Positions 8,073 to 26,443 of a stretch of 64,000 bases of DNA are shown one piece after another. Position 1 is the first letter of the stretch, and every line of letters starts with the position of its first letter. Under the pieces are notes generated by a model. The model did no database searches. It was not told the origin of the DNA and saw nothing but the letters and a program-made list of their open reading frames with translations. The DNA is taken from assembly GCF_900188275.1 (NCBI RefSeq), contig NZ_FZNY01000001.1, positions 806,001 to 870,000 of the forward strand. Reading direction: 5' to 3'. This DNA is from Dokdonia pacifica. Lineage in GTDB: Bacteria; Bacteroidota; Bacteroidia; Flavobacteriales; Flavobacteriaceae. A program made the position numbers and the translations under genes.

Positions 8073-8098
8073 AAATAAATTGTAATTAATAATTATAC

Positions 8099-8112
8099 GC
8101 TTTCGCGAAAGC
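8099..8112. repeat. short palindrome in the PL6 leader
   Basis: GCTTTCGCGAAAGC lies 27 bp upstream of the PL6 start codon, between promoter and gene, so it will be in the 5' UTR. Confidence 0.9.
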
Positions 8113-8236
8113 AAAAGACAAATGTGCACATACGATATTATACTATTCAAAGTCGTAAACACAACAGTATGTAAACTCTTTATAAATGGGAAAAAATTCG
8201 GTATTTTCTATACAGAATGTTTAAGCCCGCGGGTAT

Positions 8237-10137: not shown

Positions 10138-10203
10138 TAAATGTAATAGGTTGCTCAAAAATGAACTATCACAATCCTGCAAAATAGTATCACATTTCCG
10201 ACA
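10138..10203 (-). promoter_or_regulatory. regulated promoter C: 33-bp motif plus -7 box
   Basis: The plus-strand motif 10171-10203 begins ACAAT and ends ACATTTCCGACA. Exactly 25 nt away is TACATTTA (minus strand, 10138-10145), close to TAnnTTTG. The same arrangement occurs before the genes starting at 17388 and 26275. No gene follows before the terminator at 10071. Confidence 0.65.
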
Positions 10204-10249
10204 ATATGTACTATAATATGGCAACCCTATAGTACCGTCTATAAAAAAA

Positions 10250-10470: not shown

Positions 10471-13400
10471 TTATCGCTTTATAAGCTGTTTTCTAGTACT
10501 TCCTAATGTTCCTTGTATCTCTACAAAATAAGCTCCTTTGGTTAGTGTAGTTACATCAAAACTTACAGTACCTATTGCAGTATGTCTATCGTGTGTAGCG
10601 ACTAATCGTCCACGAAGGTCATAAATCGCAATAGTTTCTATAGATATGCCTGAAGGGTTAGTTATATACACCATGTTACTTGCAGGATTAGGATACATTT
10701 TTAAGTCTTTTAGAATCATTGCATCTTCTATGCTTAATACATCTTCTACAGTCACTTCAAATGAGCAACAGGTTTCGTTTCCTGATGGATCTGTAGCACA
10801 TAAAGTAATCGTATGAATTCCTTCATCTAGTAATGTTCCAGGTATCGGATCTTGTGTAAGAAGTGCTACAGTTTCCTCACAATTATCTGAAGCCGTAGCA
10901 TCTCCCGTAGCAAAATAATCTGGCAATTCAAACAAAGGCATATCATCTGTGAGTTCGATAGTTTGATCTTCTGGACAAACTACTTCTGGTGAGATAAGAT
11001 CTTCAACCGTTACTGTAGCAGTACACATATCTATATTTCCACTAAGATCAGATACAATTAATGAAAACTCTGTAACTCCTACATTTCCGCAACTAAGATT
11101 GGATGAACTTACAAAACGCACATACCCATCATATGAAGGAATTACTTGTCCTGATTGGGAAGTACTAACATCTACAAAATACGTTGTGCCTTGTTCTAAT
11201 TCAAAATTTAATGTCCCATTAATGAACACGCCTTCTGGGCTTCTAAATGTAAAGCCAACAAATTCTGGTCTCGTTATTAAGTTCCCACTATTTCGTACAG
11301 GAGGAGCATCATAAAGTATTGCTATAGCCCCTAAGTCTCCTGTAGTTGTATGTGTAAGTTGATACGTCCCTGTAAAAGGCGCTACAAAACTATATGCATC
11401 TACAAACGAAGGATTATCACCTACAATAAATGTATCTTCTATATCGGTATCAGTTATTTCGCCACTATACAATAACGTTCCTAAATCTATTGTAAAATCA
11501 CAGTTGTCAGCACTACCACCATCTATTTGTGTAATGTCAAAATTTGCTTCGCCATTTTCATCTAACTGTACTGTTATATCTTGACAGATTGCTGTAGGAG
11601 TGATCAAATCTTCAACAGTTACTGTAGCTGTACAAGTAGCTTCATTTCCATGTATATCTATTGCTGTAAGCGTCACTGTATTCTCCCCTAAGTCAGCACA
11701 GGTAAATGTATCTATATCAACACTTAATGCCTCAATAGCACAATTATCACTTGCACCGTTAGTAATACTCTCTGCGGTAATTGTTGCTATTCCAGTGGCA
11801 TCTAGCTGTACTGTAATATCTTGACAAATCACTTCTGGAGCAACCGTATCTTCTACAGTAACTGTAGTCGTACAAGCAGCTTCGTTTCCATTAGTATCAA
11901 CAACCGTTAAGGTTACTGTATTTTCTCCTACATGAGTACAATCAAAACTATCTATATCAATACTCAAGGATGCGATTCCACAATTATCAGTACTACCTCC
12001 ATCTATATCTATTGCTGTAATTGTTGCGATTCCAGCTGCATCTAACTGTACAGTGACCGCTTGACAAATTACTTCTGGAGCAAGGGTATCTTCTACAATC
12101 ACCGTAGCTTCACAAGAAGTCATGTTGCCGCTTGTATCTGTTACGGTTAAGGTAACTGTATTCTCTCCTAAGTTTGCACAATTAAATGAGGCTGTATCAA
12201 TACTTAAGGAAGCAACACCACAATTATCAGTACTCCCATTATCTATATCTGTTGCAGTAATACTTGCATTTCCATTGGCGTCTAGTTGCAGGGTAATATT
12301 TTGACAAAGTGCCTCTGGTGCAAGCGTATCTTCTACCGTTACAATTGCAGTACAAGAATCACTATTATCATCAACACTGGTTGCAGTAAGTGTAACAGTA
12401 TTCATCCCAATATTAGAACAATCAAAACTAGTGATATCGAGTGTTACACTATCTGCATTTGCAGAACCCCCATCTATTTGGGCAGCAGTGATAGTCGCAT
12501 TTCCATTTGCATCTAATTGTACTGTAATGTCTTGACATACTGCGGTAGGAAAAGATTCTTCTACTATTGTTACTATAGCATCACATGTATCTGAATTACC
12601 ACTATCATCAGTTACTGTTAGAGTAACCGTATTTTCTCCAAGATCTGCTGTGGTAAATGTATCTTGAGAAATAGTTAGTGAAGCTATACCACAATTATCT
12701 GTACTTCCATTATCTATATCTGTTGCAGTGATACTTGCATTTCCGTTGACGTCTAGTTGTAGGGTAATATTTTGGCAAAGTGCTTCTGGCGCGAGTGTAT
12801 CTTCAATAGTAACAGTCGCGGCACACATTGCTGTAACACCCCCTACATTGGTAGCAGTTACAGTTACGGTGTTTTCTCCAATATTTGTACAGTTAAACGT
12901 ATCTATATCTATAGAAATCGTATCAATAGCAGGATCATTCACATCTCCAGCAAATATGTCTTGTACTTGTATAGTGCCTTGTCCATTTTCGTCGAGTTGT
13001 ACCGTAATATCTACACAGGCAATATCAAAATTATTTGGATCACTACAATCTGGGGTATAATCAAAAATTTGAGATCCTGGCTCCCCTTGACAATTGGCTC
13101 CCTCAAAATTAAAACCTACAAGTGGATTAAAAGGTCCACAAGCGGTAAAGAATTGATCATCAAAAGGGTTGGTAGCATCAAAACAAACCGCTGGATCTTC
13201 TCCAGCAGCACCTGGAAGAAATCTAATTTTTAAATGCACAAGTGCAACAGGCGTGCCTGCAGGAACATTATCTCCATACATACCACTACTAGCATTTTGT
13301 TGCCATATAAAAGATACTTTGGTGTCTTCTGTGTCATTATTAATAAAACTGGTATAGTGTGCTCCTAAAGGCACAGGAGTCCCTCCTACATCTACAATCA

Positions 13401-13674
13401 CTTCTCCACCAAGTAGTGAAGTGTCTGGACGCTCAAAGGTGATCCTATTATTATTGGCTACTTGTGTACCAAAAGCAGTTGCACTATAATCTAAAAAAAA
13501 TTGCCCTGAACCCATGCTAAAAGCAACATCAGATGCAATCATCACATCTACTTCATAGAAAGAATCTGGTCCCTCTGTAGTCACTTCGGGATTTTGAAAT
13601 GACAGCGTAATATCCTGAGCCTGTATAGTACATACAGCCAAGATCATTGTTAGAAAAATTGGAATATATTTCAT
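10471..13674 (-). CDS. T9SS-exported surface protein: cohesin-like module, seven Ig/HYR-like repeats, type A sorting domain
   Basis: A 1067-residue protein with a signal peptide ending near Ala-Gln. Residues about 20-190 form a beta-rich module (SMGSGQFFLDYSATAFG) that resembles cohesin/CBM2-type folds and recurs at the N-terminus of the protein at 14818. Seven repeats of about 75-85 residues follow, each with 'ICQDITVQLD', 'NGxSTDNC' and 'GENTVTLT'; the seventh carries a long insertion. Then comes a canonical HYR domain and a C-terminal T9SS type A domain (MYPNPASN, then GAYFVEIQ, ending KQLIKR). The protein should be secreted by type IX and anchored to the cell surface. Paired Cys in the repeats suggest disulfides. 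Role is probably adhesion or scaffolding (inference). Confidence 0.9.
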   Translation of the reverse strand: MKYIPIFLTMILAVCTIQAQDITLSFQNPEVTTEGPDSFYEVDVMIASDVAFSMGSGQFFLDYSATAFGTQVANNNRITFERPDTSLLGGEVIVDVGGTPVPLGAHYTSFINNDTEDTKVSFIWQQNASSGMYGDNVPAGTPVALVHLKIRFLPGAAGEDPAVCFDATNPFDDQFFTACGPFNPLVGFNFEGANCQGEPGSQIFDYTPDCSDPNNFDIACVDITVQLDENGQGTIQVQDIFAGDVNDPAIDTISIDIDTFNCTNIGENTVTVTATNVGGVTAMCAATVTIEDTLAPEALCQNITLQLDVNGNASITATDIDNGSTDNCGIASLTISQDTFTTADLGENTVTLTVTDDSGNSDTCDAIVTIVEESFPTAVCQDITVQLDANGNATITAAQIDGGSANADSVTLDITSFDCSNIGMNTVTLTATSVDDNSDSCTAIVTVEDTLAPEALCQNITLQLDANGNASITATDIDNGSTDNCGVASLSIDTASFNCANLGENTVTLTVTDTSGNMTSCEATVIVEDTLAPEVICQAVTVQLDAAGIATITAIDIDGGSTDNCGIASLSIDIDSFDCTHVGENTVTLTVVDTNGNEAACTTTVTVEDTVAPEVICQDITVQLDATGIATITAESITNGASDNCAIEALSVDIDTFTCADLGENTVTLTAIDIHGNEATCTATVTVEDLITPTAICQDITVQLDENGEANFDITQIDGGSADNCDFTIDLGTLLYSGEITDTDIEDTFIVGDNPSFVDAYSFVAPFTGTYQLTHTTTGDLGAIAILYDAPPVRNSGNLITRPEFVGFTFRSPEGVFINGTLNFELEQGTTYFVDVSTSQSGQVIPSYDGYVRFVSSSNLSCGNVGVTEFSLIVSDLSGNIDMCTATVTVEDLISPEVVCPEDQTIELTDDMPLFELPDYFATGDATASDNCEETVALLTQDPIPGTLLDEGIHTITLCATDPSGNETCCSFEVTVEDVLSIEDAMILKDLKMYPNPASNMVYITNPSGISIETIAIYDLRGRLVATHDRHTAIGTVSFDVTTLTKGAYFVEIQGTLGSTRKQLIKR

Positions 13675-13724
13675 AGTATTTAATTTTATAAGATCATTTT
13701 ATATTTTTTCTACACACGTTATTT

Positions 13725-13740
13725 CGCTTTCGCGAAAGCG
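13725..13740. repeat. short palindrome, intergenic copy
   Basis: CGCTTTCGCGAAAGCG lies between the YceI-like gene and the T9SS protein gene. Confidence 0.9.
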
Positions 13741-13752
13741 TATGAAAGTGTT

Positions 13753-14307
13753 CTATTCTTCATTTTGACATACTGCATACTCAAAATTGAATGTCATTTG
13801 AATTCTCTTTGAGATATGAGCATCAAATACACTTGGGATTGAAATGTTAAAATCTTTTATTTTTATTGCTGTTTCTCCTACCATTCTATAGGAGTCTTCT
13901 GTTCTAGTGATTAATACTTTTATTCGTATAGGCACAGTAATTCCTTTTATGGTCAATCCTCCTTCTACTATTCGTGCTTGCGGTGATTCTTGTGATGCAT
14001 CAAAATTCACAATCCTACCGATAAACCGAGCATCAGGATATAAATCAGATTCTAAATATGTCTTATTAAAATGCTGCTGCATTGACTCCTTTTCAAAGTC
14101 AAATGCACTGACCAATAGATGAATCGACAAATCCCCTGTACACACATCTAGCACGCTGGCCACTTTATTATTTATACCCTCTATCGTCGCTACAGAGGTA
14201 TGTGAAAAAAAGGCCACTTCTCCTGTTTTTGTTAGGTAGTGGTTTCTATTTCTTTCTGTACTTGACACAGAACTTATTAAAAGAAAAATGAGTATTAGTT
14301 TATTCAT
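13753..14307 (-). CDS. YceI-family protein
   Basis: A 184-residue exported protein with the YceI lipocalin-like pattern: GEVAFFSHTSVATIEGINNKV near residue 30, 'SAFDFEKESMQQHFNKTYLESDLYPDARFIG' in the middle, and 'GGLTIKGITVPI' later. Members bind isoprenoid or amphiphilic ligands in the periplasm (established for some). The signal sequence is short and lacks a clear cleavage site. It lies in the block of surface proteins, with terminator 14498 upstream of it. Confidence 0.85.
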   Translation of the reverse strand: MNKLILIFLLISSVSSTERNRNHYLTKTGEVAFFSHTSVATIEGINNKVASVLDVCTGDLSIHLLVSAFDFEKESMQQHFNKTYLESDLYPDARFIGRIVNFDASQESPQARIVEGGLTIKGITVPIRIKVLITRTEDSYRMVGETAIKIKDFNISIPSVFDAHISKRIQMTFNFEYAVCQNEE

Positions 14308-14497
14308 TTCTTATTTCTAAAAAGAAAAGATCGCTAGCCCTCCAACCAGACGACCTTTCCTACTACACAATAAATTAATCACGTATAAGTTGGATGGGGA
14401 CATAACTAATCTATCTACATTCACAATTCTCCTTTTAGTACTATTAAATAGGTAATTACATATCAAAATATGCTTGAAACATTACAGAAGTGTCTGT

Positions 14498-14529
14498 AAA
14501 AAAGCTCCTCCTATATGAAGGAGCTTTTT
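14498..14529. terminator. bidirectional terminator after the PID-CTERM-like gene
   Basis: AAAAAGCTCCT pairs with AGGAGCTTTTT, with A/T tracts on both sides. It lies 57 bp beyond the stop of the minus-strand gene at 14586. Confidence 0.85.
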
Positions 14530-14585
14530 ATTTTACTAAACCAATTATAATATCTCACTATAACAATTATGATTAGAAAAATTTC

Positions 14586-14795
14586 TTATCTAACATTCTT
14601 CATTTTCTTACGTAATCCTATATATGCTCCTGCAGCAAGCGCCACACCTATTAATCCATCTATAGGCATGGGTGGTGGGACATCTTCTACATCATCATCA
14701 AAAGTGATTTGAGGTGTCGTCGCACTTGCACTTAGCGATAGCATCAGCCCAGTAATTACTATTAGGATTCTTATATTTTTTATATATGGTTTCAT
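14586..14795 (-). CDS. small exported protein with PID-CTERM-like C-terminus
   Basis: A 69-residue protein with an N-terminal hydrophobic signal (ending near Ala-Ser-Ala), a short acidic linker (DDDVEDVPPP), then Pro-Met-Pro-Ile-Asp-Gly, a hydrophobic helix and a basic tail (RKKMKNVR). Pro-Ile-Asp followed by a transmembrane helix and basic end is the pattern of the PID-CTERM putative sorting domain found on tiny Bacteroidetes proteins. It starts 23 bp after the stop of the T9SS protein gene at 14818 and is probably cotranscribed, ending at terminator 14498. Function unknown. Confidence 0.8.
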   Translation of the reverse strand: MKPYIKNIRILIVITGLMLSLSASATTPQITFDDDVEDVPPPMPIDGLIGVALAAGAYIGLRKKMKNVR

Positions 14796-14817
14796 ATTAT
14801 GAGTTTTGATGTTATGA

Positions 14818-17388
14818 TTATTGCTTGATCATTCTACGTGTTACCGTACCAGCATCGCTTGAAAGGGTTACGAAATAAATTCCTTTACTTACATTGCTCA
14901 TAGCATTTGTAGTAAGTGTATTTCCAATAAATTGTACTTGCTTGTTATACAATTGCTGCCCTAACATATTAGTTACAGTAAGTGTTACTTCTTTTCCCTG
15001 TAAATCTGTAGATACGATACTTAGGTTTGTATTTCCTATTGGATTTGGGAATAGGGTAAGTGCAAACGCTTCTACAGTTTCTGTGGCTAATGCTTCTTCC
15101 GCGAAAGCGAAACTAAAACGATTACTAGCCGAGCTTTCATCATCTGAGCTTACAGTAAATGAAATCACATTTTCTCCTTCAGAAAGTGGTGTAGAGATTC
15201 CTGTAAATGCGTCTACCAAATAAGCCGTTACTTCTCCTAATGCAGCAACATCTACTACTAGCGTATAGGCATCGGTTCTATAGGTGGTATTTACTAATGG
15301 GATGATCTCCCCTTCTTGTGGAAGGAAACGACGCTCTATACTTAATGTCGTATCATCATTAGAAATCGCCATAGACTCATCTTGATTAAAGAATTTAGAC
15401 GCATCTTCTAGTGTGATACTATTACTATGATCTGGGGAAAAGAATATTCCAAAACTATCTTGTAATGATGTTCCTGTTTCATAGGCTTCTGTACGATATA
15501 ATTGGCCTATAATATGTGCTTCATCTAATGGATTATTTTCTGTAAAACTTGTGGCAGTATCTTCTCCAACAACTTTACTAGTTTCAGCAAATAGTATAGA
15601 AGCAGCGCCATTAGTTGCTGTCGTTACAAATCCAGCTTGTCCTGGTTGCAAAAACTGATTGGCTGCAGACATAGAGGTATTGGTCCCAGATGGAAGCATT
15701 ACCGTTACATAAGCACCACGTTCTCCTAAGGAAGGGTCCCACACAAAATATTGATTGGTATTTACATTGGTAGACGCCGTAGTAACTGTTCCCATATCTA
15801 CAGACGCTTGATATGGGTTTCCAAAGAAATTAAAATCACCTGCCGTTGCGCTAAAATCAGTTTGTGATACATTTCCAGTAACTAACGTTCCCGTAGCTCT
15901 AATAACTGTTTCTGAAGGAGTAGGTGTAGCCGCACTTAAATCTACCGCACGACTTCCGCGTACAAAAAGACGATATCCTTTCCCTGCAGTAAGCACATCG
16001 GTGTCTGTATTGGTAATTGCTTCCCATGCTTGTGCTACATTATTTAACTCAAACAAAGATGCATTATCTGTCACGGTATCATCAAAACCATTGGCTCCTG
16101 CATCACCTCCTGTGATATGGGTTCCAAAACCAGGATTCGGATCAAGATTAGTCCCATCTACATTGTTTACCCCTTCTTGCCAGTTGGCATTAATGGTAGT
16201 ACTCGTAGTCACAGCACTTGAAGTTAATCGAAACGCACGACGACTAGACATATAACGTTCTACAGTCACATCTCCTGTAATGGTTCCGTTTGCAACCTCA
16301 GCAAGCATCGCTGTAGTAGATGCATTACTTTTAAAAGTAAGCGTGCCTCCCGTTACATCTAGCGTCCCATCAGTAAGTATTACGGTACTCAATACATCAA
16401 CAGTTCCTGTAAGTGTCGCATCAGCGGTACTTGTATTATTCATTACTAAATTAGCAACGCCAAAATCTCCACTGATTGCTTGTGCAGCTACACCAGAAAT
16501 AACGATGGTAGATTGATCGGCTGTCAATGTTCCTGAAACATCAAGGTTACCATGAAGATTCAGTGTATTTGCTGCAATATCAAGTACACCTGTATTTGCG
16601 ATGGTTACATTATTTGCAATCACATCTCCTGTAAAAATCGCATCTGGCGATAGTACTTCAATATTATCGTTTATAGTTGCTACACCTTCAGGTGGCTGTG
16701 GCGTCCAAGCATCATTCTCCCATACAAAGGTGACTCCATTAAAAATTACAGATCCTGAACAGTCAGGCGAGTAATCAAAAATCTGACTTCCAGGCTCACT
16801 TAAACAATCTGCTCCTTCAAAACTAAATCCTACTAACGGATCAAAAGGCCCACAAGCTGTAAAAAATTGATCATCAAAAGGATTGGTCGCATCAAAGCAT
16901 ACATCAGGGCTTTCTGCTGTAGCGCCTGGTAAAAATTGAATTTTCACATGTACCAATACCACAGGAGTTCCTGCAGGTACATTATCTCCATACATTCCGC
17001 TACTGGCATTTTGTTGCCATAAAAAAGACACTTTAGAATCTGTAGTATCATTTGTTGTAAAACTTGTATAATGTGCTCCTAAAGGCACTGGTGTTCCACC
17101 TACATCTACAATCACAGCTCCACCTAATAAAGAGGTTTCTGGACGTTCAAATGTAATAGCCCCACTATTATCGGCTTGCGTTCCAAAAGCCAACGGATTA
17201 TAGTCTAAAAAAAACTGTCCAGACCCCATACTAAAGGCAACATCTGAAGAGATCATCACATCTACTTCATAAAAACTATCCATCCCATCGGTGGTGATTT
17301 CTGGGTTTTCAAAGGATAGGGTAATGTCTTGTGATTGCATTGTAAAAATGGCAAACAACATTAAAATTCCTAGGGTAATTTGTTTCAT
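14818..17388 (-). CDS. T9SS-exported surface protein with cohesin-like N-terminal module
   Basis: An 856-residue protein. The first 205 residues are closely similar to the N-terminus of the protein at 10471 (signal peptide, SMGSGQFFLDYNPLAFG module, and a shared tail 'CGPFDPLVGFSFEGA'). Residues about 230-345 look like a beta-solenoid segment (repeated 'DVxVxxTGVLDI'-like strands), and about 345-650 match the generic flavobacterial surface region seen before sorting domains. The C-terminus is a T9SS type A domain (LFPNPIGNTN, GIYFVTLSS, RRMIKQ). A degenerate palindrome copy near 15100 encodes AFAEEA. Its promoter (17440-17505) carries the shared 33-bp motif. Confidence 0.88.
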   Translation of the reverse strand: MKQITLGILMLFAIFTMQSQDITLSFENPEITTDGMDSFYEVDVMISSDVAFSMGSGQFFLDYNPLAFGTQADNSGAITFERPETSLLGGAVIVDVGGTPVPLGAHYTSFTTNDTTDSKVSFLWQQNASSGMYGDNVPAGTPVVLVHVKIQFLPGATAESPDVCFDATNPFDDQFFTACGPFDPLVGFSFEGADCLSEPGSQIFDYSPDCSGSVIFNGVTFVWENDAWTPQPPEGVATINDNIEVLSPDAIFTGDVIANNVTIANTGVLDIAANTLNLHGNLDVSGTLTADQSTIVISGVAAQAISGDFGVANLVMNNTSTADATLTGTVDVLSTVILTDGTLDVTGGTLTFKSNASTTAMLAEVANGTITGDVTVERYMSSRRAFRLTSSAVTTSTTINANWQEGVNNVDGTNLDPNPGFGTHITGGDAGANGFDDTVTDNASLFELNNVAQAWEAITNTDTDVLTAGKGYRLFVRGSRAVDLSAATPTPSETVIRATGTLVTGNVSQTDFSATAGDFNFFGNPYQASVDMGTVTTASTNVNTNQYFVWDPSLGERGAYVTVMLPSGTNTSMSAANQFLQPGQAGFVTTATNGAASILFAETSKVVGEDTATSFTENNPLDEAHIIGQLYRTEAYETGTSLQDSFGIFFSPDHSNSITLEDASKFFNQDESMAISNDDTTLSIERRFLPQEGEIIPLVNTTYRTDAYTLVVDVAALGEVTAYLVDAFTGISTPLSEGENVISFTVSSDDESSASNRFSFAFAEEALATETVEAFALTLFPNPIGNTNLSIVSTDLQGKEVTLTVTNMLGQQLYNKQVQFIGNTLTTNAMSNVSKGIYFVTLSSDAGTVTRRMIKQ

Positions 17389-17439
17389 TGTTAAATAAAT
17401 TTGTAGTTATTATTTGGGTGATATTTGTATATGCTTTCG

Positions 17440-17505
17440 CGAAATTAGCCTCAGATTCCCCTTTCCACTATAACAATACCGCACAATGCTGGCACGTTTC
17501 CGACA
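17440..17505 (-). promoter_or_regulatory. regulated promoter B: 33-bp motif plus -7 box
   Basis: Plus-strand motif 17473-17505 (ACAATACCGC at the start, ACGTTTCCGACA at the end). After exactly 25 nt comes TAATTTCG on the minus strand (17440-17447), 52 nt upstream of the ATG at 17388. The -7 box overlaps a truncated palindrome (CTTTCGCGAAA, 17434-17444). Confidence 0.75.
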
Positions 17506-17576
17506 TTTATGGCGAAAACGTACACATCATTATTAAAAGGGAAGAGATTATAGAAATTTTTGGCTGTTACATGACC

Positions 17577-20500
17577 TCAATCAAACTGCTGTACGGTACC
17601 AGAATTTGCGAGTACCAATAGCTGTATATCTGAATTCAACACAAAGCCATTCATATCGGCATCTGCTGTGGAGTAGGCTTCACTACCTCCTGCAAGGCTT
17701 AAGGCTTCTGTAATGTCTGTATTGAGAATCTGGCTACTGCCATCGGCATCTCCTGCGATCATCGCAAAGGTGCCATTCACTTCGGAAAGTGCGAGGTTTT
17801 CTCCTTTCGCGAAAGCGGGATCTTGTGTAAAATCAAGCGTGCTTGCAGTGCTACTTAAAGGCGCTGGCACTGCAGCTAGTATCCCAATGTGATTACGGTG
17901 TCTAATGGCGATAAAATAATCACCTGCATCTTCTGTAAAGGTGATGTTTGAGGTACCATCTAGCCCTACGATATCTCCGTCTCGCTGTAATAGCGCTGCT
18001 GTACTGTTTACAACCGTGGTATTGTCATTATCTGCTCCAGATCGTAATTCTACCAGTACCCAATCGACGATGGCATTGGCACCTATAGTAGTAAATACCG
18101 TTGGGTCAACCGTTGCACCATCACCGTATGGAGAAGTCGTAGGAAGGAGTCCATTTTCGCGTAAGCTATCACGCATTAAGTCTTCTTCTCCAGCAATAGG
18201 GTTTGTGGCAGCGCCTTGTAAGAATACTTTCGGAGCTACGGTGATATCAATCGCAAATTCTGTGATCGATCTAAATCCTGTCCAACCTTCATCTAAGTAG
18301 GCTTGTGTGGTACCCTCAGGAACGAATAAGTCTATAAGTATTCTTCTATTACCAAAAGAATCCTGAGTCCCTGTAACGATACTCGGGGGTGTAATGGCTT
18401 CTACTGTAACCGAAGCCATTGGATTATCTAGAAATATATTATCTCCAAGTCGTGTTACATTTGAAGGGATGACTAGATTCGTAATTTGGTTATTTCTAAA
18501 GGTATTATTCCCCAAATTAGTAATGTTAGTAGAAATAATTAGCTCAGTAATCTCATTATCTTCAAAGCTGGCATTCGCTAAGGATGATACACTATTAGGG
18601 AGTATGAATGTTCCTGAAATGTTATTTTCTTGAAAGGCTCTAAACCCAATACTATTTAAATTATCAGGGAGTATAGGCATTGTTATAGCATTTCCAAAAA
18701 AGGCTCTTATACCTATCGATTCAAGGGTATTTGGTAATGCCACACTGGTTAAGCTTCGTTCTTCAAAAGCAGCACGTCCAATTGCTGTGACTGTAAAAAT
18801 TTGCTCTTGAATTAATACGGTCTCTGGGACGATAAGATTTGTAGATATCCCTGTGCCGCCTATCACTTCTACTTCATTGGGTAGCTCAGAAATAATCCTG
18901 TATACAAGACCGTCATCTAAAAATGTATTATCATTTATGGATGCAAAATCTGTCCATCCTGCATCTAAATAGGCTTGTGTTGTGCCTGGTGGCACTGATA
19001 AATCTATACCCGCTCTGTTTCCGAAAGTAAGAGGTTGGATAGTCGCAGGTATTTCACCCAATGCGATCACAGTGTCCAGAGCATTTATTTCAAAGGCTCC
19101 TTGACCAATAGATTGCACCGTACTGGGTATGGTTATGCTAGTTAAATCATTCATTCTAAAGCTTGCAATACCAATGGTTTCCAATCCTTCGGGTAAGTTA
19201 ATTTCAGTCAAAGCATTGTTACCGAAAGAAAGGTCTTCGATATGGCGTATTGTGCTAGGTAGCGTTACACTGGTAAGTCCTGAAGTTAGAAAAGCACTCT
19301 CACCAATACTTACTAAGGTATAATCACCACGTTCTCCTATTGTTACCGTTTCTGGTAAAATCAAATCAGAAGGAATCGTTGTACCTCCTATCACTGCTAC
19401 TTCATTGGGTGATTCAGAAATAATGGTATACCTAAGCCCCTCAATAGTAAGTGTAATACCTACGGCTTCATCATTGATAGATCCAAAACCTGTCCAATCC
19501 GCATCTAAGTATGTCTGTATGGTACCTTCGGGTACGATCAAGTCAATCACAGAGCGATCTCTAAAGCTGTCATTATCTATACCACTGGTGACAATAGCTG
19601 CTGGCGTAGCTCCTAATGCGATCACTTTTGTCAAATTAGTATTATCTCTAAACACGCCATTGGCAAGACTTGTCATACTTGCAGGAAGTGTAATCTCTGC
19701 TACATCTGCATTTCTAAATGCGCCTGGACCCAATGTTGTGACACTATTCCCCAAGCTTACGTCTGTAAGGGCTACATTATCTCTAAAAGCATCTTGAGCT
19801 ATTTCGATCACGCTATTGGGTATACTCACACTGGTAAGGTCATTACCCCTAAATACTCCTATACCTATGGTTTCAATTGAATTTCCCAGGGTAACATCTG
19901 TTAGTTGATTGTCCCTAAAAGCATTTGCTCCTATATCTATGACACTATCTGGTATGGTAACGCTGGTAATATTATCATTTCTGAAAGCATCATCTTCTAT
20001 TTCAATGATATCAAATCGTATTCCGTTTAAACTGGGTCTGCCATTGATAGTTATATTTCCACTATTCTCATTACCAATAATAGTAGCTTGATTAGGGTTA
20101 CTAGCGATAAGCCTATAGTTAGTACCAGATGTTGCATTAAAAATACCACCCAAAGGACCTGTATACACGCCATTGACTCCAAAAAAACCGATCCAACCTG
20201 CATTTTCATAGATAGTTTCAAAACCCTCAGGAACGGTAAGGTTAACCCTAGAACGATCTCTAAAGCTATCATTATCTACACCGCTATTTACAATACTTGC
20301 TGGGGTAGTACCTAGTGCTATCACACGGACAAATGATACATTATCACGAAATACACCATTGGCAATATTTGTCATACTGGCTGGAAGTGTAATCTCTACT
20401 ATTTGGTTATTCCTAAAGGCGCCTGGCCCTAGCGTTTCAACACTATTCCCTAAGATCATGCTTGTGATTTGATTGTCTCTAAAAGCATCTTGACCTATAT

Positions 20501-22604
20501 CAGTTATGCTATTTGGAATCGTTACACTGGTAATATTATTATTTCTAAAGGCATTTGGTTCTATCTCAACGACATCAAAATCTGTTCGGTTGGATGTAAT
20601 GAATCCTTGTATCACTAGATCACCAGAATTGGTATTATCAACAATATGAGCCGTATTTGGGCTACCTGCAGCGACCACTTTATAGGTAATATTGTTACTT
20701 GTAAATTCTGTATCTAGTGGTAGGGTATACACCCTATTGACACTAAAAAAATTCACCCAGTTATCAACTGCGTAGGTAGCTTCAGAACCTTCAGGAACCA
20801 CTAGACTAATCCTAGAACGATCTCTAAAACTATCGGTATCCTGACCGCTACTAGTTACAACAGTAGCAGGATTTGTACCTAATGCATTAATTTGCCGTAT
20901 GGTGGTATTATCCCGAAACACCCCGTTAGCGATATCTCTCATACTGGCAGGAATGGTAATGGCTGTTATTTGGTTATTTCTAAACGCCCCTGGACCAAGG
21001 CTTTCAACACTATTCCCTAAGGTCATGCTTGTAATTTGATTGTCTCTAAAAGCGTCTTGACCAATGTTTATGACCGTATTTGGGATACTTACACTGGTTA
21101 GTGCACGATTTCGAAACGCGTTGTTTTCTATATCAATCACTTCAAAATCAGTACGGTTCTCTGTTATGACACCCTCAATCACTAAATCACCTGTAACTAT
21201 ATCATCATCACTTTCAACAATATCGACTAAATTAGGAAGGCTCCCTGTAAATGTGATATTGTAAGTAATGCCGTTAGCGGTAAAGGTTTGTCCTTCCGGA
21301 CGTGAATACACCCCATTGACACTAAAAAAATTCACCCAATCTGCCGCTGCATACGTTGCCTCAGTACCCTCAGGAACCACTAAGCTAATGAGAGTACGAT
21401 CTCTAAAACTATCAGTATCTAAACCATTACTGGTTACAATAGTTGCAGGGTTTGTGCCTAATGCATCAATTCGCCTTAAGGTGGTATTATCACGAAACAC
21501 CCCATTTTCAATAGTTGCCATACTAGCAGGAAGAGTAATCTCTTCTATATCATTATTCCTAAAGGCTCCAGCGCGCAAGGTGGTCACACTATTTCCTAAA
21601 GTTACCTCCGTGAGTTGGTTGTCTCTAAACGCATCTTGCCCCACTATGATCACGCTGTTTGGGATCGTTACACTGGTAATTTGGTTTTGAAAAAACGCAC
21701 CTCTACCTATATTAATAATACTATTAGGAAGCGTTACACTGGTAATATTATTTCCTCTAAAAGCGTCCTGTTCTATAATTATAACGTCAAAAATGATTCC
21801 TCTAACTGACAGTATAGGTCCAAAACTTATATCCCCAGAATTAGTATTATTTATAATGCTCGCTTGGTTGGGATTGCCCGATAGAAAGCGATAGGTAATG
21901 CTATTATTTGCTACAATAGTATCTCCTATCTCACCAGTATACTGGCCATTGACACTAAAGAAATTGACCCAATTTGCCGCTGCATACGCTTCTTCAGCAC
22001 CTGCAGGCACGGTGAGATTAATGACGGAGCGATCTCTAAAACTATCATTATCTACTCCACTCGTACTAACCATTGCCGGCGTGGTACCTAGTGCTTCAAT
22101 GGTTCTTAAACCTGTATTATCTCGAAACGCACCATTTTCAATATTTATCATACTGGCAGGAATCGTAATATCTACTATTTGGTTATTTCTAAAAGCACCT
22201 AGATCAAGTACTTCAACCCTATTCCCTAAGGTTACGTCTGTAAGTTGATTATCTCTAAAAGCATCTATACCCACTGTAACAACGAAATTTGGAATCGTCA
22301 CACTACTCAATTGATTATTTCTGAAAGCATCTCTATCGATAACAAAAATGGAATTAGGAAGTACGACACTCTCGAGTTGTCCGTTTTCAAATGCACTATC
22401 TCCTATCTCTCTCACGATAAATTCTGTACCATTATTGGTAACGAATGCAGGAATAGTTAGGTTTGTAAATGCAAAATTACCTCCTGTAACTTTTACCTGA
22501 TTTGATGAAATGACTTCATAATTGAGACCACTAACAGTAAAGGTCTGTGCATAGCTTACTACCGATAGTAATAAGGTGATCAAAAGTGATACTATTGTTT
22601 TCAT
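17577..22604 (-). CDS. giant BspA-type leucine-rich-repeat surface protein with dockerin-like C-terminus
   Basis: A 1675-residue protein with a signal peptide (ends Ser-Tyr-Ala-Gln). It has about seven super-repeats, each of BspA/LRR_5 units ('IxxxAFRNNQITSVTIPNSV' style) closed by a linker such as WVNFFSVNGVYT. After the last repeat a domain with 'PKVFLQGAA', 'EEDLMRDSLR', 'AIVDWVLVELR' and 'YFIAIRHRNHIGI' follows. The final 60 residues carry two Asp-rich calcium-loop-like segments (GDADGSSQILNTDI and ADADMNGFVLNSDI) and end at QQFD. No T9SS type A domain is visible. BspA-type proteins mediate binding to surfaces or host proteins. The last 300 bp are very similar to the end of the gene at 22712, which implies duplication or conversion. 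Confidence 0.88.
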   Translation of the reverse strand: MKTIVSLLITLLLSVVSYAQTFTVSGLNYEVISSNQVKVTGGNFAFTNLTIPAFVTNNGTEFIVREIGDSAFENGQLESVVLPNSIFVIDRDAFRNNQLSSVTIPNFVVTVGIDAFRDNQLTDVTLGNRVEVLDLGAFRNNQIVDITIPASMINIENGAFRDNTGLRTIEALGTTPAMVSTSGVDNDSFRDRSVINLTVPAGAEEAYAAANWVNFFSVNGQYTGEIGDTIVANNSITYRFLSGNPNQASIINNTNSGDISFGPILSVRGIIFDVIIIEQDAFRGNNITSVTLPNSIINIGRGAFFQNQITSVTIPNSVIIVGQDAFRDNQLTEVTLGNSVTTLRAGAFRNNDIEEITLPASMATIENGVFRDNTTLRRIDALGTNPATIVTSNGLDTDSFRDRTLISLVVPEGTEATYAAADWVNFFSVNGVYSRPEGQTFTANGITYNITFTGSLPNLVDIVESDDDIVTGDLVIEGVITENRTDFEVIDIENNAFRNRALTSVSIPNTVINIGQDAFRDNQITSMTLGNSVESLGPGAFRNNQITAITIPASMRDIANGVFRDNTTIRQINALGTNPATVVTSSGQDTDSFRDRSRISLVVPEGSEATYAVDNWVNFFSVNRVYTLPLDTEFTSNNITYKVVAAGSPNTAHIVDNTNSGDLVIQGFITSNRTDFDVVEIEPNAFRNNNITSVTIPNSITDIGQDAFRDNQITSMILGNSVETLGPGAFRNNQIVEITLPASMTNIANGVFRDNVSFVRVIALGTTPASIVNSGVDNDSFRDRSRVNLTVPEGFETIYENAGWIGFFGVNGVYTGPLGGIFNATSGTNYRLIASNPNQATIIGNENSGNITINGRPSLNGIRFDIIEIEDDAFRNDNITSVTIPDSVIDIGANAFRDNQLTDVTLGNSIETIGIGVFRGNDLTSVSIPNSVIEIAQDAFRDNVALTDVSLGNSVTTLGPGAFRNADVAEITLPASMTSLANGVFRDNTNLTKVIALGATPAAIVTSGIDNDSFRDRSVIDLIVPEGTIQTYLDADWTGFGSINDEAVGITLTIEGLRYTIISESPNEVAVIGGTTIPSDLILPETVTIGERGDYTLVSIGESAFLTSGLTSVTLPSTIRHIEDLSFGNNALTEINLPEGLETIGIASFRMNDLTSITIPSTVQSIGQGAFEINALDTVIALGEIPATIQPLTFGNRAGIDLSVPPGTTQAYLDAGWTDFASINDNTFLDDGLVYRIISELPNEVEVIGGTGISTNLIVPETVLIQEQIFTVTAIGRAAFEERSLTSVALPNTLESIGIRAFFGNAITMPILPDNLNSIGFRAFQENNISGTFILPNSVSSLANASFEDNEITELIISTNITNLGNNTFRNNQITNLVIPSNVTRLGDNIFLDNPMASVTVEAITPPSIVTGTQDSFGNRRILIDLFVPEGTTQAYLDEGWTGFRSITEFAIDITVAPKVFLQGAATNPIAGEEDLMRDSLRENGLLPTTSPYGDGATVDPTVFTTIGANAIVDWVLVELRSGADNDNTTVVNSTAALLQRDGDIVGLDGTSNITFTEDAGDYFIAIRHRNHIGILAAVPAPLSSTASTLDFTQDPAFAKGENLALSEVNGTFAMIAGDADGSSQILNTDITEALSLAGGSEAYSTADADMNGFVLNSDIQLLVLANSGTVQQFD
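17804..17815. repeat. short palindrome inside the LRR gene
   Basis: CTTTCGCGAAAG is read in frame as part of Pro-Ala-Phe-Ala-Lys-Gly. The paralogue at 22712 has unrelated codons at this place, so the palindrome is specific to this copy. Confidence 0.9.
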
Positions 22605-22624
22605 AAATTAATTTTTTAGTTTTT

Positions 22625-22688
22625 CGCTTTCGTACTTCGACTACGCTCAGCATAAACTTCTGCGTCACTACGTTCCTTGAAAGCGTAC
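22625..22688. repeat. mosaic repeat: palindrome arms split by a foreign insert
   Basis: Outer arms CGCTTTCG and GAAAGCGTAC flank an internal block with ACTTCGACTACGCTCAGCAT, related to the block at 28325-28350. It lies between the two LRR genes. Confidence 0.65.
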
Positions 22689-22711
22689 TTAGAATTATTC
22701 CTTTTTTTCAA

Positions 22712-25700
22712 TTAATCAAACTGCTGCACGGTACCAGAATTTGCCAGCACCAATAATTGAATATCTGAATTCAATACAAACCCATTCATATCTGCATCTG
22801 CGGTGGAGTAGGCTTCACTACCTCCTGCCAGCGTTAAGGCTTCCGTAATGTCTGTATTGAGAATCTGGCTACTGCCGTCGGCATCACCGGCAATCATGGC
22901 GAAGGTTCCGTTTACCTCTGTAAGTGCTAAGTTTTCGCCCAGAGCACTCGTTATATTTTGTGTGAAATCTATAGGCGCTGATGTTGTGTTAAGTGGTGAG
23001 GGAACCGAAGTGATGATACCTATGTGATTACGATGTTTAATCGCTAGAAAATAATCACCTGCATCTACGGTAAAGGTAATGGGTGATGTTCCATCTGTGT
23101 CTACAATATCACCATCGCGTTGTAATAATGCTGATTGACTTGCTATGATTGTTGAACTATTTGAGGCATCTCTTAATTCAACAAATACCCAATCAACAAT
23201 TGCATTTGGACCAGTTGTCGTAAATAATGCTAATGTGTCTGAAACAGGTAATGCATCCTCATATGGGCTAAACACAGGAATGATACCTGCCACTCGCAAG
23301 TCGTCACGCATTAAATCTTCTTCTCCTGCATTTGGATTGATGGCAGCACCTTGTAAGAATACTTTAGGCGCTATTGTAATAGCTAGGTCTATTTCTGTAA
23401 TAGAATTGAAATTAATCCAACCACCATCTATATAATCTTGTGTGGTTCCTGAAGGTATGGTTAACTCTATGTTTGATCGATTACTAAACGTGTCGTTATT
23501 TCCTGTTGTGATACTAGCAGGTATACTTCCTAGTGCTGTAACTTCAGATAATGGATTTCCTTCAAATGCACGAAAACCAATACTACTTATAGTTTCAGGA
23601 AATGTAATGCTTGTCAATTCGTTATTACGAAAGCCCTGCCCTCCTATAGACACCAAACTATTAGGTAGTATGACACTCGTTAATTCATTACCACGAAAAC
23701 CACTTGCTCCTATACTTACTAACGTATTTGGTAGAATGACACTTGTTAAATCGCTAGCATCAAACGCACTACCTCCTATAGCCCTAACCGTAAAGTCTGA
23801 ACCACTACTGCTGACGATAGCATCAATCACAAGGTCTTGAGGAACAGCGGTTCCTCCTGTTATAGTCACTTCATTAGGAACTACTGATGTAACCGTGTAA
23901 TTTAAATTGTTTACTATAAAGGTATCGCCTACTTCAAAATTAATCACTCCATTTATGGAGTTAAAATTCACCCAACCTGCAGCTTCATAGGCTACTTCTG
24001 TACCATTAGGTACTGTTAAATCTATATCATTTTCGTTATTAAAAGAATCATCACTTGTTCCTAAAACAACACTAGGCGGCGTTGGATTTAAAGAGTTAAT
24101 ACTATTGAAAGTAGATCCACTAAAAGCACGTTGACCAATGCTCACTACATTTTCTGGTAGTATGAGCGTTGTTAAGTTATTATTTTCAAAAGATCTAAAA
24201 CCTATGGTTTCTAAACTAGTAGGAAATGTGACACTCGTTAAATCATTGCTAGCAAAGCACCTATTCGGTAAGTCTGTAACGCCCTCTGGTATCACTACAG
24301 ATTCAAGTGCATTAAAACGAAATGCTGCCGTCCCTATAGCACGAATTGTAGTAGGAAACGTAACACTTGTCAAACCAGAAGAGGTAAACGCTCCATCTCC
24401 AACACCTACTACTGTAAATACAACTCCTTGTATAGTAACTGTTTCTGGAAGCACTAAATTGACAGGCACCGTAGTTCCTCCTGCTACTTCAACTTCTGTA
24501 GGATTTAAAGAAGTAATCGTATAAGAAAGTCCATCGACATCAAATGTATTTCCTATTCCCAGTGGTAATTCCCCATTGATGGTCGCAAATCCTGTCCATC
24601 CATTATTGAGATACTCTAGCTGTGTACCAACGGGTATGGTTAAATCGATATTACCTCGGTTGCTAAAAGAATCGGTATTTACGTCTGTCGTGATATTTGC
24701 AGGAGTACTTCCCAAAGCAATAACTGCTACGAGTGGATTCCCTTGAAATGCTCTAAAAGCAATAAGACTTACATTCTCTGGAATGGTAATACTCGTTAAT
24801 TGATTATTACGAAATGCTTGCCCTCCTATCGTTGTAATCGTACTAGGTAACGAAACACTTGTTAAACCATTAGAAATAAACGCGTTTCCCTCTACAGCAG
24901 TCACTACAAAATCTGAACCCCCACTACTTACATTTTCTGGAATAGTTAGATTTTGTGGAACCGATGTCCCACCTCTAATGATCACTTCATTTGGGGATAG
25001 TGAGGTTACCGTGTAATTCAAATTATTTTCAGTAAAGGTATCTCCAACTTCAAAATCAACTACTCCATTTACGGAGTTAAAACCTACCCAACCCGCTGCT
25101 TCATAAGCTGCTTCTGTGCCATCAGGAATGGTTAAATTAATGTTTCCTTCGTTAGTAAATGAATCATTATTTCCTGCACCTATAACAACACTTGGCGGTG
25201 TAGGGTTTAAAGAATTCACACTAGTTAAAGGGGAGTTTGTAAAAGCAAATTGCGAAATACTGGTCACATTTTCTGGTAGTACAAGACTTATAAGATCATT
25301 ATTTTCAAAAGATCGAAAACCAATCGTTTCTATACTAGTAGGTAAGCTTACACTTATCAAGTCATTGTTAGAAAAACAACGTTGTGGAATATCAGTAATC
25401 CCATCTGGAATAACCACTTCGGTAATCGAATTAATACGAAATGTTGATTGTCCTAAATTACGCAAAGTACTGGGAAACGAAACACTTGTAATGCCATTGC
25501 CTTCAAATGCATTATTACCGAGAGCTACAACCGTAAAATCCGTTCCATTATCTGAAACAGTCTCAGGAATTACTAGGTCTGACGTAGGGGGTGTACCTCC
25601 CGTTAATTGAACTTCATTAGGTACTAAAGCTGTAATAACATAGGATAATCCATCTACCTCAAATAGGCCACCAATGATAGGTTGTTGCACACCATTTATA

Positions 25701-26275
25701 GAATTAAAACCCGTCCAGCCTGCGGTAATATAAGTGTCTTCTGTACCATCAGGCACGGTTAAATCTATATTGCTTCTGCTACCTCCAAATGTTGTCGTTC
25801 CAATGGCAGCAGGTGTTGTGCCTTCTGCTGTAATTATTGCCAAAGGATTGGCTCCAAAGGCACTCTCACCTATAGATATCATTGTGCTTGGAAAAGTAAT
25901 ATTTGCAAGACTATTAAATCTAAAAGCTCTTTGACCAATGGTTTCTAATCCTTCAGGCAATTCAATAGTCGTCAATGAATTTTGATCAAAGGTAAAATCA
26001 CCAATACTCCGTATGGTATTTGGTAACGAAACGCTTGTAATACTCTTACTCTCAAACGCGTTATTGCCTAAGGCAACGACAGTGAAATCGTCAATACCAT
26101 CGTTTACGATATCTGGGATTACTAAATCTGACGTAGGCGGCGTACCTCCTGTTAATTGAACTTCATTAGGTGTCGTAGATAGTATCGTGTAGTTTAAACC
26201 ATCTACTGTAAAGGTTTGTGAAAACCCAGTTGCTGAAATACACAAGATCAGCAAAAGTATACATAAATTTTTCAT
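22712..26275 (-). CDS. BspA-type leucine-rich-repeat surface protein with dockerin-like C-terminus
   Basis: The start at 26275 gives MKNLCILLL with a clean signal peptide (ends Gly-Phe-Ser-Gln); an upstream ATG at 26299 only adds eight residues and lies closer to the -7 box. The 1187-residue protein has about five super-repeats of BspA/LRR_5 units, each ended by 'GFNSINGV'-like linkers, then the same C-terminal domain (PKVFLQGAA, EEDLMRDDLR, HRNHIGI) and dockerin-like tail ending QQFD as the gene at 17577. It is first in its transcription unit, with promoter A upstream; the gene at 17577 follows after 107 bp and has no motif of its own, so they may be cotranscribed. Confidence 0.88.
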   Translation of the reverse strand: MKNLCILLLILCISATGFSQTFTVDGLNYTILSTTPNEVQLTGGTPPTSDLVIPDIVNDGIDDFTVVALGNNAFESKSITSVSLPNTIRSIGDFTFDQNSLTTIELPEGLETIGQRAFRFNSLANITFPSTMISIGESAFGANPLAIITAEGTTPAAIGTTTFGGSRSNIDLTVPDGTEDTYITAGWTGFNSINGVQQPIIGGLFEVDGLSYVITALVPNEVQLTGGTPPTSDLVIPETVSDNGTDFTVVALGNNAFEGNGITSVSFPSTLRNLGQSTFRINSITEVVIPDGITDIPQRCFSNNDLISVSLPTSIETIGFRSFENNDLISLVLPENVTSISQFAFTNSPLTSVNSLNPTPPSVVIGAGNNDSFTNEGNINLTIPDGTEAAYEAAGWVGFNSVNGVVDFEVGDTFTENNLNYTVTSLSPNEVIIRGGTSVPQNLTIPENVSSGGSDFVVTAVEGNAFISNGLTSVSLPSTITTIGGQAFRNNQLTSITIPENVSLIAFRAFQGNPLVAVIALGSTPANITTDVNTDSFSNRGNIDLTIPVGTQLEYLNNGWTGFATINGELPLGIGNTFDVDGLSYTITSLNPTEVEVAGGTTVPVNLVLPETVTIQGVVFTVVGVGDGAFTSSGLTSVTFPTTIRAIGTAAFRFNALESVVIPEGVTDLPNRCFASNDLTSVTFPTSLETIGFRSFENNNLTTLILPENVVSIGQRAFSGSTFNSINSLNPTPPSVVLGTSDDSFNNENDIDLTVPNGTEVAYEAAGWVNFNSINGVINFEVGDTFIVNNLNYTVTSVVPNEVTITGGTAVPQDLVIDAIVSSSGSDFTVRAIGGSAFDASDLTSVILPNTLVSIGASGFRGNELTSVILPNSLVSIGGQGFRNNELTSITFPETISSIGFRAFEGNPLSEVTALGSIPASITTGNNDTFSNRSNIELTIPSGTTQDYIDGGWINFNSITEIDLAITIAPKVFLQGAAINPNAGEEDLMRDDLRVAGIIPVFSPYEDALPVSDTLALFTTTGPNAIVDWVFVELRDASNSSTIIASQSALLQRDGDIVDTDGTSPITFTVDAGDYFLAIKHRNHIGIITSVPSPLNTTSAPIDFTQNITSALGENLALTEVNGTFAMIAGDADGSSQILNTDITEALTLAGGSEAYSTADADMNGFVLNSDIQLLVLANSGTVQQFD

Positions 26276-26324
26276 AGTAGTTATTTTGATAAAACACATA
26301 CTGTTGGGTATGTGAATATGTCCC

Positions 26325-26390
26325 CAAAATTAGGTCTACTACTATTAGTAAGCTGTAACAATACCGCCTAATGCTAGTACATTTCCGACA
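26325..26390 (-). promoter_or_regulatory. regulated promoter A: 33-bp motif plus -7 box
   Basis: Plus-strand motif 26358-26390 (starts ACAATACCGC, ends ACATTTCCGACA), then exactly 25 nt, then a perfect TAATTTTG -7 box on the minus strand (26325-26332), 50 nt before the ATG at 26275. There is no TTTG at -33, which fits activator dependence. Confidence 0.78.
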
Positions 26391-26443
26391 TGTATATTGG
26401 TAATTTTATGCTCTATGCATAAGGAAATAGCTATTTTTTTAGG

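Follow-up and report, generated by a model that had tools for sequence, protein, structure and literature searches.

A putative cohesin–dockerin docking system on type IX secretion substrates in Dokdonia pacifica

A 64,000-nucleotide stretch of the Dokdonia pacifica genome (NZ_FZNY01000001.1, positions 806,001 to 870,000; hereafter the window, part of contig C21 in our numbering of the 5.52-Mb genome) encodes two large leucine-rich repeat (LRR) proteins, 17577 and 22712, in which Pfam and NCBIfam recognise no type A, B or C domain of the type IX secretion system (T9SS). Beside them lie two proteins, 14818 and 10471, that do carry a type A domain and share an N-terminal module. How might the LRR proteins come to be displayed at the cell surface? 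We propose, with a probability of roughly 0.75, that these genes encode a calcium-dependent docking system built on the T9SS, in which cohesin-like modules of the two T9SS substrates would hold X-dockerin-like tails and so display LRR adhesin-like proteins; the binding, its calcium dependence and the surface display are what we infer from sequences and structure models. The genes and modules, in window coordinates, are:

22712–26299, minus strand: LRR (BspA-type) protein 22712 with a putative X-dockerin tail at its end (LRR_5 319 bits; no T9SS domain found)
22913–23392, minus strand: X-module-like beta domain of 22712, tail residues 1–160 (AlphaFold2 tail model and Foldseek)
22715–22912, minus strand: dockerin-like module of 22712 (profile matches to PDB dockerins, loop conservation, helices)
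22850–22885 and 22763–22798, minus strand: predicted calcium loops of the 22712 dockerin, with a helix after each
17577–22604, minus strand: LRR protein 17577 with a putative X-dockerin tail at its end (LRR_5 502 bits; no T9SS domain found)
17580–18257, minus strand: putative X-dockerin tail of 17577, dockerin part 17580–17777 (74% identity to the 22712 tail)
14818–17388, minus strand: adaptor 14818, with signal peptide, cohesin-like module, middle region and T9SS type A C-terminal domain (CTD; TIGR04183 48.2 bits)
16756–17331, minus strand: cohesin-like module of 14818, residues 20–211 (AlphaFold2 model; PDB ranks 1–19 are cohesins)
14821–15054, minus strand: T9SS type A C-terminal sorting domain of 14818 (Pfam, NCBIfam)
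10471–13674, minus strand: second adaptor 10471, with cohesin-like module, HYR repeats (93.5 bits) and T9SS type A CTD (Por_Secre_tail 51.5 bits)
13042–13617, minus strand: cohesin-like module of 10471, residues 20–211 (83% identity to the 14818 module)
10474–10698, minus strand: T9SS type A C-terminal sorting domain of 10471 (Pfam, NCBIfam)

All four genes lie on the minus strand at the coordinates given in a preliminary description of this DNA, and the transcription order is 22712, 17577, 14818, 13753 (YceI) and 10471. By eye, 22712 has a signal peptide, and its true start is probably an internal methionine at 26275. As that description had it, 10471 and 14818 are T9SS type A substrates (TIGR04183 at 41.9 and 48.2 bits respectively, cut-off 23) with a common N-terminal module, residues 1–211 being 79% identical (166/211). 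The genome also encodes the T9SS translocon protein SprA (2745 bits). The LRR proteins were said to end in two calcium-loop-like segments and to lack a T9SS type A domain, and both points stand, whereas the tail itself is longer than had been noted: about 226 residues are common to 17577 and 22712 at 74% identity, with the two loops within the last ~66. Between the two genes these last 66 codons contain 20 synonymous and one nonsynonymous codon differences, and the 158 aligned codons before the dockerin part contain 51 synonymous and 57 nonsynonymous differences.

The N-terminal module of the adaptors was modelled with AlphaFold2 from an alignment of 30 sequences from the window and from public loci, giving a predicted local distance difference test score (pLDDT) of 91.4 and a predicted template-modelling score (pTM) of 0.86. 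A fold search of this model against 350,542 PDB chains returned cohesins, or cohesin-bearing chains of cohesin–dockerin complexes, at ranks 1–19, nine of them titled type II, and a cellulose-binding domain (6qfs) at rank 20. A match to some non-cohesin fold, which the preliminary description had named as an outcome that would speak against docking, is not what the 19 best matches indicate, at template-modelling (TM) scores of 0.33–0.45 by query length. Of two sequence-based PDB searches with the module, one gave nothing and the other two weak matches (Pgp2), set aside as irrelevant. We regard the module as cohesin-like by its predicted fold and by its partner, and not as a member of the Pfam Cohesin family.

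The tail of the LRR proteins was modelled in the same way from 43 sequences of the window and public loci (pLDDT 89.7, pTM 0.88). Eight of its ten best Foldseek matches in the PDB are X-dockerin-bearing chains (4u3s, 4wi0, 2b59, 5g5d, 3kcp, and 4fl4 three times), the best being 4u3s_B with an E-value of 1.4e-4 over 230 columns, and the other two are Ole e 1-type domains; the TM-scores to X-dockerins are only 0.41–0.46 by query length. In the model a beta X module directly precedes a C-terminal dockerin, as in the type II X-dockerin dyad, and helices at 179–189 and 208–218 each directly follow a calcium loop. The predicted calcium ligands of loop 1 (D1, D/N3, D/N/S5, D/E12) are kept in 43, 42, 43 and 43 of the 43 tails, and those of loop 2 at positions 1, 3, 5 and 12 in all 43; one loop nearly duplicates the other, a mean of 8.5 of 13 residues being identical.

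Profile searches for cohesin, dockerin and EF-hand relatives were proposed in the preliminary description. Dockerin chains lead the PDB matches of a profile built from the nine tails of the D. pacifica genome: the first nine of 19 matches are cellulosomal dockerin-bearing chains (best E-value 0.0029). With the 43-tail profile, 2jnk (a hyaluronidase fragment, which we take to be a dockerin; E-value 0.0067) and 5k39 (a dockerin; 0.039) rank first. Pfam Dockerin_1 (PF00404) matches 29 of the 43 tails at E ≤ 1 (best 3e-4), and a tail protein encoded on contig C18 of the same genome scores 21.4 against a cut-off of 22.9.

The D. pacifica genome offers further instances, with nine tails and six N-terminal modules in total. 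Five of the six module genes stand directly after a tail gene on the same strand; 10471, the exception, is found two genes further along. Outside the window, clusters lie on contigs C27 (about 105–157 kb) and C18. A module gene follows eight of the nine tail genes, either directly or after a run of further tail genes; in the table of open reading frames (ORFs) none follows the tail gene C27:131612. Apart from the LRR proteins of the window, the seven other tail proteins carry LRR_4/LRR_EndoS, DUF285, Lectin_C with HYR, or P-domain regions, or regions that Pfam does not recognise. The carried regions look adhesin-like by their domain content, and Pfam recognises no glycoside hydrolase in the nine tail proteins, which is not the composition of a cellulosome.

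The pairing recurs in the family. In 149 family genomes, surveyed with profiles from the D. pacifica genome only, the N-terminal module is found in seven, any tail in 18, and tails of the window's class, class I, in six; all six, D. pacifica included, have the module (Fisher 5e-10), and in each of the five others the module begins beside a tail end. The seventh genome with the module, G061, has it alone. A larger survey of 395 family genomes used larger profiles from public genomes that partly overlap the surveyed ones, with seven or eight candidates scored per genome so that copy numbers are lower bounds; a tail was assigned to class I if the match reached the profile end, two D. pacifica tails that the smaller survey had identified being added by hand. 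Any tail is present in 46 of these genomes, class I tails in 17 and the module in 18, and 16 have both (Fisher 2e-25). Among 32 module matches, 23 have a tail end no more than 395 bp upstream on the same strand (three of them fused in one ORF), five more have a tail within 4 kb (four of these in a single polycohesin ORF), and four have none.

A scan of GTDB genomes confirmed at least 563 relatives, of which the best 80 were kept, giving 74 public loci from Dokdonia, Aquimarina, Tenacibaculum, Kordia, Winogradskyella, Lacinutrix and other genera. Of the 39 loci that hold class I tails, 28 contain a cohesin-like module, compared with one (L085, a weak match) of the 35 in which all tails are of other kinds. 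For the 67 class I tails in these loci, the module is the next such gene in 23 instances, is reached via tandem tail genes in eight, and is fused to the tail in three. Adaptors resemble those of the window in that Por_Secre_tail scores above the Pfam cut-off in eight of ten class I adaptors tested from other loci, with two just below (24.5 and 23.4 against 27). Unfused class I tails end the protein outright in 53 of 64 cases and are followed by at most 20 residues in all 64, which leaves no room for a CTD behind them.

In five loci from four genomes (L033:973–2697; L045; L058 = L097 and L096; L095:12228–15080, minus strand) a single ORF runs from cargo through X-dockerin and cohesin-like module to a CTD that scores above the Pfam cut-off in all five, the cargo region of L033 being only ~75 residues. 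The domain order of these fusions is the gene order of the unfused pairs. Cargo and X-dockerin ahead of cohesin and CTD is therefore an arrangement that occurs in nature; it is not proof of non-covalent co-export. The gene after the fusion in L095 (4321–12186, minus strand; genome G213) encodes a protein of 2622 residues in which four tandem cohesin-like modules occur together with a T9SS CTD and 14 metal-binding stretches of the MopE type (546 bits), a predicted domain arrangement that is scaffoldin-like. A minimal tail protein of about 290 residues, composed only of a signal peptide, a short stretch and the X-dockerin, also recurs (L016:7008–7880, and in L022, L029, L037, L038, L040, L053, L055 and L102), and is perhaps a plug without cargo.

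A second class of tails has the same X domain and a longer dockerin-like end (...EQLPEN). Thirteen of the 149 genomes have such tails, and 12 of these lack class I tails. In public loci these class II tails adjoin a small gene for a different candidate partner, with a signal peptide, a domain of ~180 residues and a T9SS type A CTD (CTD present in six of six tested). A profile of this partner, built from public genomes that partly overlap the surveyed ones, matches 12 of the 13 genomes that have class II tails and is absent from the other 136 (Fisher 8e-17); 17 of the 20 matches are directly downstream of a class II tail, and the remaining three, in G081, are not. In the public loci 22 of 53 class II tails lead to a partner at a gap limit of 1200 bp, although the 16 partner genes in that count were picked by eye and the count is partly circular, so that the profile test in the 149 genomes is the cleaner one. 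That each tail class has a partner class to itself is hard to explain by a simple tendency of genes for secreted proteins to lie together. The class II partner gave a single PDB match at an E-value of 0.1, which we take to be chance.

Beyond the family the picture is less defined. Relatives of the tail profile occur in 27 of 198 genomes of the phylum and the class I cohesin profile in only two, both of the window's family, so this profile does not reach divergent partners. Outside the family there are 25 matching genomes; from 15 of these we inspected 16 stretches, which contain 18 tail ORFs. For 12 of these the next gene, judged by eye, looks secreted and has an N-terminal beta-type domain, making its product a candidate partner, and a T9SS domain of type A or B scores above cut-off in eight of ten such neighbours tested. 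One of these candidate partners, L131, has a weak, nearly full-length match to Pfam Cohesin (E-value 0.016, below the cut-off). Two single divergent partners searched against the PDB gave no match for one and weak irrelevant matches for the other. In L085, from a Saprospiraceae metagenome-assembled genome, a tail of a third kind (ending RNRKSQLP) is followed by two genes that weakly match class I cohesin profiles (E-values 6e-4 and 0.02), which suggests that the pairing reaches beyond Flavobacteriaceae. We treat a phylum-wide pairing as a lead rather than a result.

We also compared sequence distances across 24 adjacent pairs. Distances among dockerins covary with those among the neighbours' cohesin-like modules (r = 0.70), compared with 0.16 for the dockerin and the X module of its own protein and 0.21 for X module and cohesin. 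In the 21 pairs for which the CTD sequence is available, the partial correlation given the X module is 0.69, and that between dockerin and adaptor CTD is 0.32. When four divergent groups are left out, 13 pairs remain and r falls to 0.18 (partial correlation 0.22, p 0.12). Because of this dependence on the divergent groups, we do not accept the covariation as proof of contact.

Several further observations weigh against cohesin–dockerin docking. The TM-scores of the N-terminal module to the 19 cohesins are low by query length and an E-value of 0.001 or less is reached once, so that its relation to cohesins is remote; Pfam Cohesin (PF00963) matches none of the 30 modules, and the sequence-based PDB searches found no cohesin. 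LpxD chains and calmodulins are also among the 24 weak PDB matches of the 43-tail profile, and the window's own 22712 tail has no Dockerin_1 match at E ≤ 1. The partners of classes I and II are unrelated by profile comparison (probability 0.1–0.2%), the class I profile matches divergent partners only at E-values of 0.13 or worse, and six of the 18 divergent tails have, by eye, no plausible next-door partner. Within the family, G366 has a class I tail and no cohesin-like module, G061 and G285 have the module and no tail (the G285 match starts 633 bases from the first base of its contig), and 11 of the 39 class I loci have no such module at all. The preliminary description had held that tails occurring widely without a partner module would count against docking. 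Tails are indeed widespread (46 of the 395 family genomes and 27 of the 198 of the phylum), and in the family a class-specific adaptor is present in nearly every genome that has them, often as the next gene, but 33 of the 67 class I tails in public loci, two of them at locus ends, have no downstream partner at a gap limit of 1200 bp. Unpaired tails are expected if there are more plugs than sockets, yet a weaker hypothesis would produce them too.

The docking that we propose would work as follows. Adaptors 14818 and 10471 combine an N-terminal cohesin-like module with a C-terminal T9SS type A signal, and proteins with such a signal pass the outer membrane and are then either attached to the surface or released. 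The signal would carry the adaptors through the outer membrane, after which they would stay at the surface or be let go. The LRR proteins appear, by eye, to have a Sec signal peptide only, and a putative X-dockerin where a T9SS substrate has its sorting domain. The dockerin would bind the adaptor's cohesin in the presence of calcium, and the LRR proteins would be displayed via the adaptor. In effect, the dockerin would borrow its partner's CTD, either by binding in the periplasm before export or by docking afterwards outside. According to the account in PMC10994853, the CTD of T9SS substrates is the targeting element and binds in the SprA pore, and a type A substrate is afterwards either set free or attached to lipopolysaccharide. 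Somewhat short of an even chance, in our estimate, is the more specific idea that proteins without a T9SS signal pass through the T9SS translocon in a non-covalent cohesin–dockerin complex with an adaptor that has one, a piggyback secretion in which mutually exclusive (orthogonal) cohesin–dockerin classes would serve Bacteroidota as addresses, each adaptor exporting and displaying its own adhesins alone.

The facts can be read in other ways. The tail sits at the extreme C-terminus as a CTD does, with the positions of the 64 unfused class I tails given above, conservation extends to its final residues (mostly Gxx[QE]QF), and the host has a T9SS, so the X-dockerin tail could be imagined as a non-canonical sorting signal by which tail proteins export themselves, the cohesin proteins being merely co-regulated neighbours. 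We consider this unlikely: the predicted tail fold resembles X-dockerins, Pfam finds no T9SS domain in the scanned tail proteins, the tail is internal in the five fusions and is followed there by a cohesin-like module and a normal CTD, and neither the class-specific partners nor the partner fold would be explained. Similarly improbable to us is a released matrix, in which binding is real but extracellular, the adaptor leaving via the T9SS and the tail protein via vesicles or another route. That the fate of type A substrates is either release or linkage to surface lipopolysaccharide (PMC10994853) would suit it. The scanned tail proteins show no other recognisable export signal, vesicle sorting being beyond the tools used, and the fusions with a CTD place cargo, dockerin and cohesin on one T9SS substrate.

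A jelly-roll carbohydrate-binding module with cohesin-like topology is a third candidate for the N-terminal module; the tail would then bind something else and both would serve adhesion to one substrate. The cellulose-binding domain at PDB rank 20 and the adhesin- or lectin-like cargo (LRR, Lectin_C, HYR, DUF285) are compatible with this, but the 19 matches above it are cohesins, and the class-specific pairing and the 20:1 ratio of synonymous to nonsynonymous differences in the dockerin point to a protein partner. We give this explanation very little weight, and retain docking of an X-dockerin to a cohesin-like adaptor as the preferred reading.

The preliminary description had also claimed that the gene set is co-regulated, from a motif with identical −7 spacing before 14818 and 22712. 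A motif of 39 bp, identical at 33 positions, is present at both promoters, and in each a −7-like box, CTAATTT[T/C]G, follows after exactly 19 nt:

26325–26391, minus strand: promoter element before 22712, comprising the 39-bp motif (26353–26391), 19 nt and then CTAATTTTG (motif scan)
17440–17506, minus strand: promoter element before 14818, comprising the 39-bp motif (17468–17506), 19 nt and then CTAATTTCG (motif scan)

At up to three mismatches these are the only two copies in the 5.52-Mb genome, and a reversed-pattern control gave none. The motif fits co-regulation of a tail operon and an adaptor operon, and co-regulation is supported for these two promoters only. A third, weaker copy (10166–10204, minus strand, eight mismatches), without the box at 19 nt, is found 341 bp upstream of 8668, a lipoprotein-like gene that may be part of this local regulon. 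The available stretches of the genome's other tail and cohesin clusters contain no copy at up to 11 mismatches, and neither does the Dokdonia locus L021 have one (best score 15), in a stretch that does not include the adaptor promoter; best scores elsewhere were 14–16 in seven other loci and 16 in one shuffled locus. Given its absence from these other clusters and from the Dokdonia locus, we rejected the idea that the motif marks such systems in general.

Upstream of the gene set lie an alpha/beta-hydrolase protein with an AraC helix-turn-helix (HTH) domain by Pfam (26444–28102, minus strand; NCBIfam LipJ 227 bits, cut-off 800) and a secreted or membrane-type tetratricopeptide repeat (TPR) protein with, by eye, a LuxR-type HTH (28392–30056, minus strand). 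Similar TPR/HTH genes adjoin the C27 and C18 clusters. As a mark of such clusters the TPR/LuxR-type regulator was dropped, its motif being found in only four of the 74 public loci. A chondroitinase-B-type lyase (PF14592, 621 bits) is encoded in the neighbourhood, at 5769–8162 on the minus strand.

Cohesin and dockerin modules outside cellulosomes were reportedly described by Peer et al. in 2009, and the modules themselves are of a known kind. The closest structural counterparts, PDB 2b59, 4u3s, 5g5d and 5k39, are, as we understand the roles of the proteins, type II cohesins and X-dockerins of clostridial cellulosomes. As there, the X module and then the dockerin stand at the C-terminus of the carried protein, the dockerin has two putative calcium-binding loops, the cohesin is on what would be a surface-bound partner, and polycohesin proteins exist (here one, with four). 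Unlike there, the partners are T9SS substrates of a Gram-negative outer membrane rather than cell-wall-bound scaffoldins, the carried proteins of this genome are LRR- or lectin-like and not cellulases, and gene pairs with modules too distant for Pfam Cohesin take the place of one scaffoldin with many enzymes.

Another parallel is Ca. Stygibacter (Cloacimonadota), for which a protein resembling a scaffoldin, with tandem cohesins and a CTD, and enzymes with C-terminal dockerins, were inferred (PMC8542988). In both cases cohesins are on a protein with a T9SS-type CTD and dockerins at the C-termini of secreted proteins, whereas Ca. Stygibacter belongs to another phylum and has one scaffoldin of 3755 residues, with carbohydrate-binding modules, and degradative enzymes; in the relevant parts of that account there is no mention of an X module, of paired genes, of partner classes or of fusions. 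Surface proteins with a type B CTD and their PorP/SprF-like partners (PMC9143113) resemble the arrangement proposed here in that a dedicated partner holds a surface protein; in the portions of that paper concerned, the CTD is on the carried protein itself and a beta-barrel acts as partner, whereas here the carried protein lacks a CTD and the partner brings one.

On Bacteroidota the literature is divided. Pfam dockerin matches have been listed in single-cell genomes of Bacteroidales (Alistipes, Bacteroides), within the same phylum as our locus; unlike here, the pertinent sections report no cohesin partner for them, a cohesin only in a Firmicute, and discuss dockerins as cellulosome parts of Firmicutes (PMC10266427). 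One study, in its section on these modules, found no cohesins or dockerins, consistent with other Bacteroidetes genomes (PMC5831590), another describes, in the corresponding part, two cellulolytic species as having neither dockerin nor scaffoldin (PMC6247017), and the accessible text of a review of T9SS effectors contains neither "cohesin" nor "dockerin" (PMC10202324). Paired cohesin and dockerin genes in Bacteroidota are not described in the accessible portions of the open-licence dockerin and T9SS literature, preprints excluded.

Should the pairing hold, complete cohesin–dockerin systems would exist in Flavobacteriaceae and perhaps more widely in the phylum, and were probably overlooked because their cohesins fall below Pfam thresholds. 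Docking, if true, would explain how large secreted proteins without a sorting domain are displayed and would give this group a display route of its own. It would also make non-covalent co-export through the T9SS directly testable, and would provide new, possibly orthogonal protein plugs.

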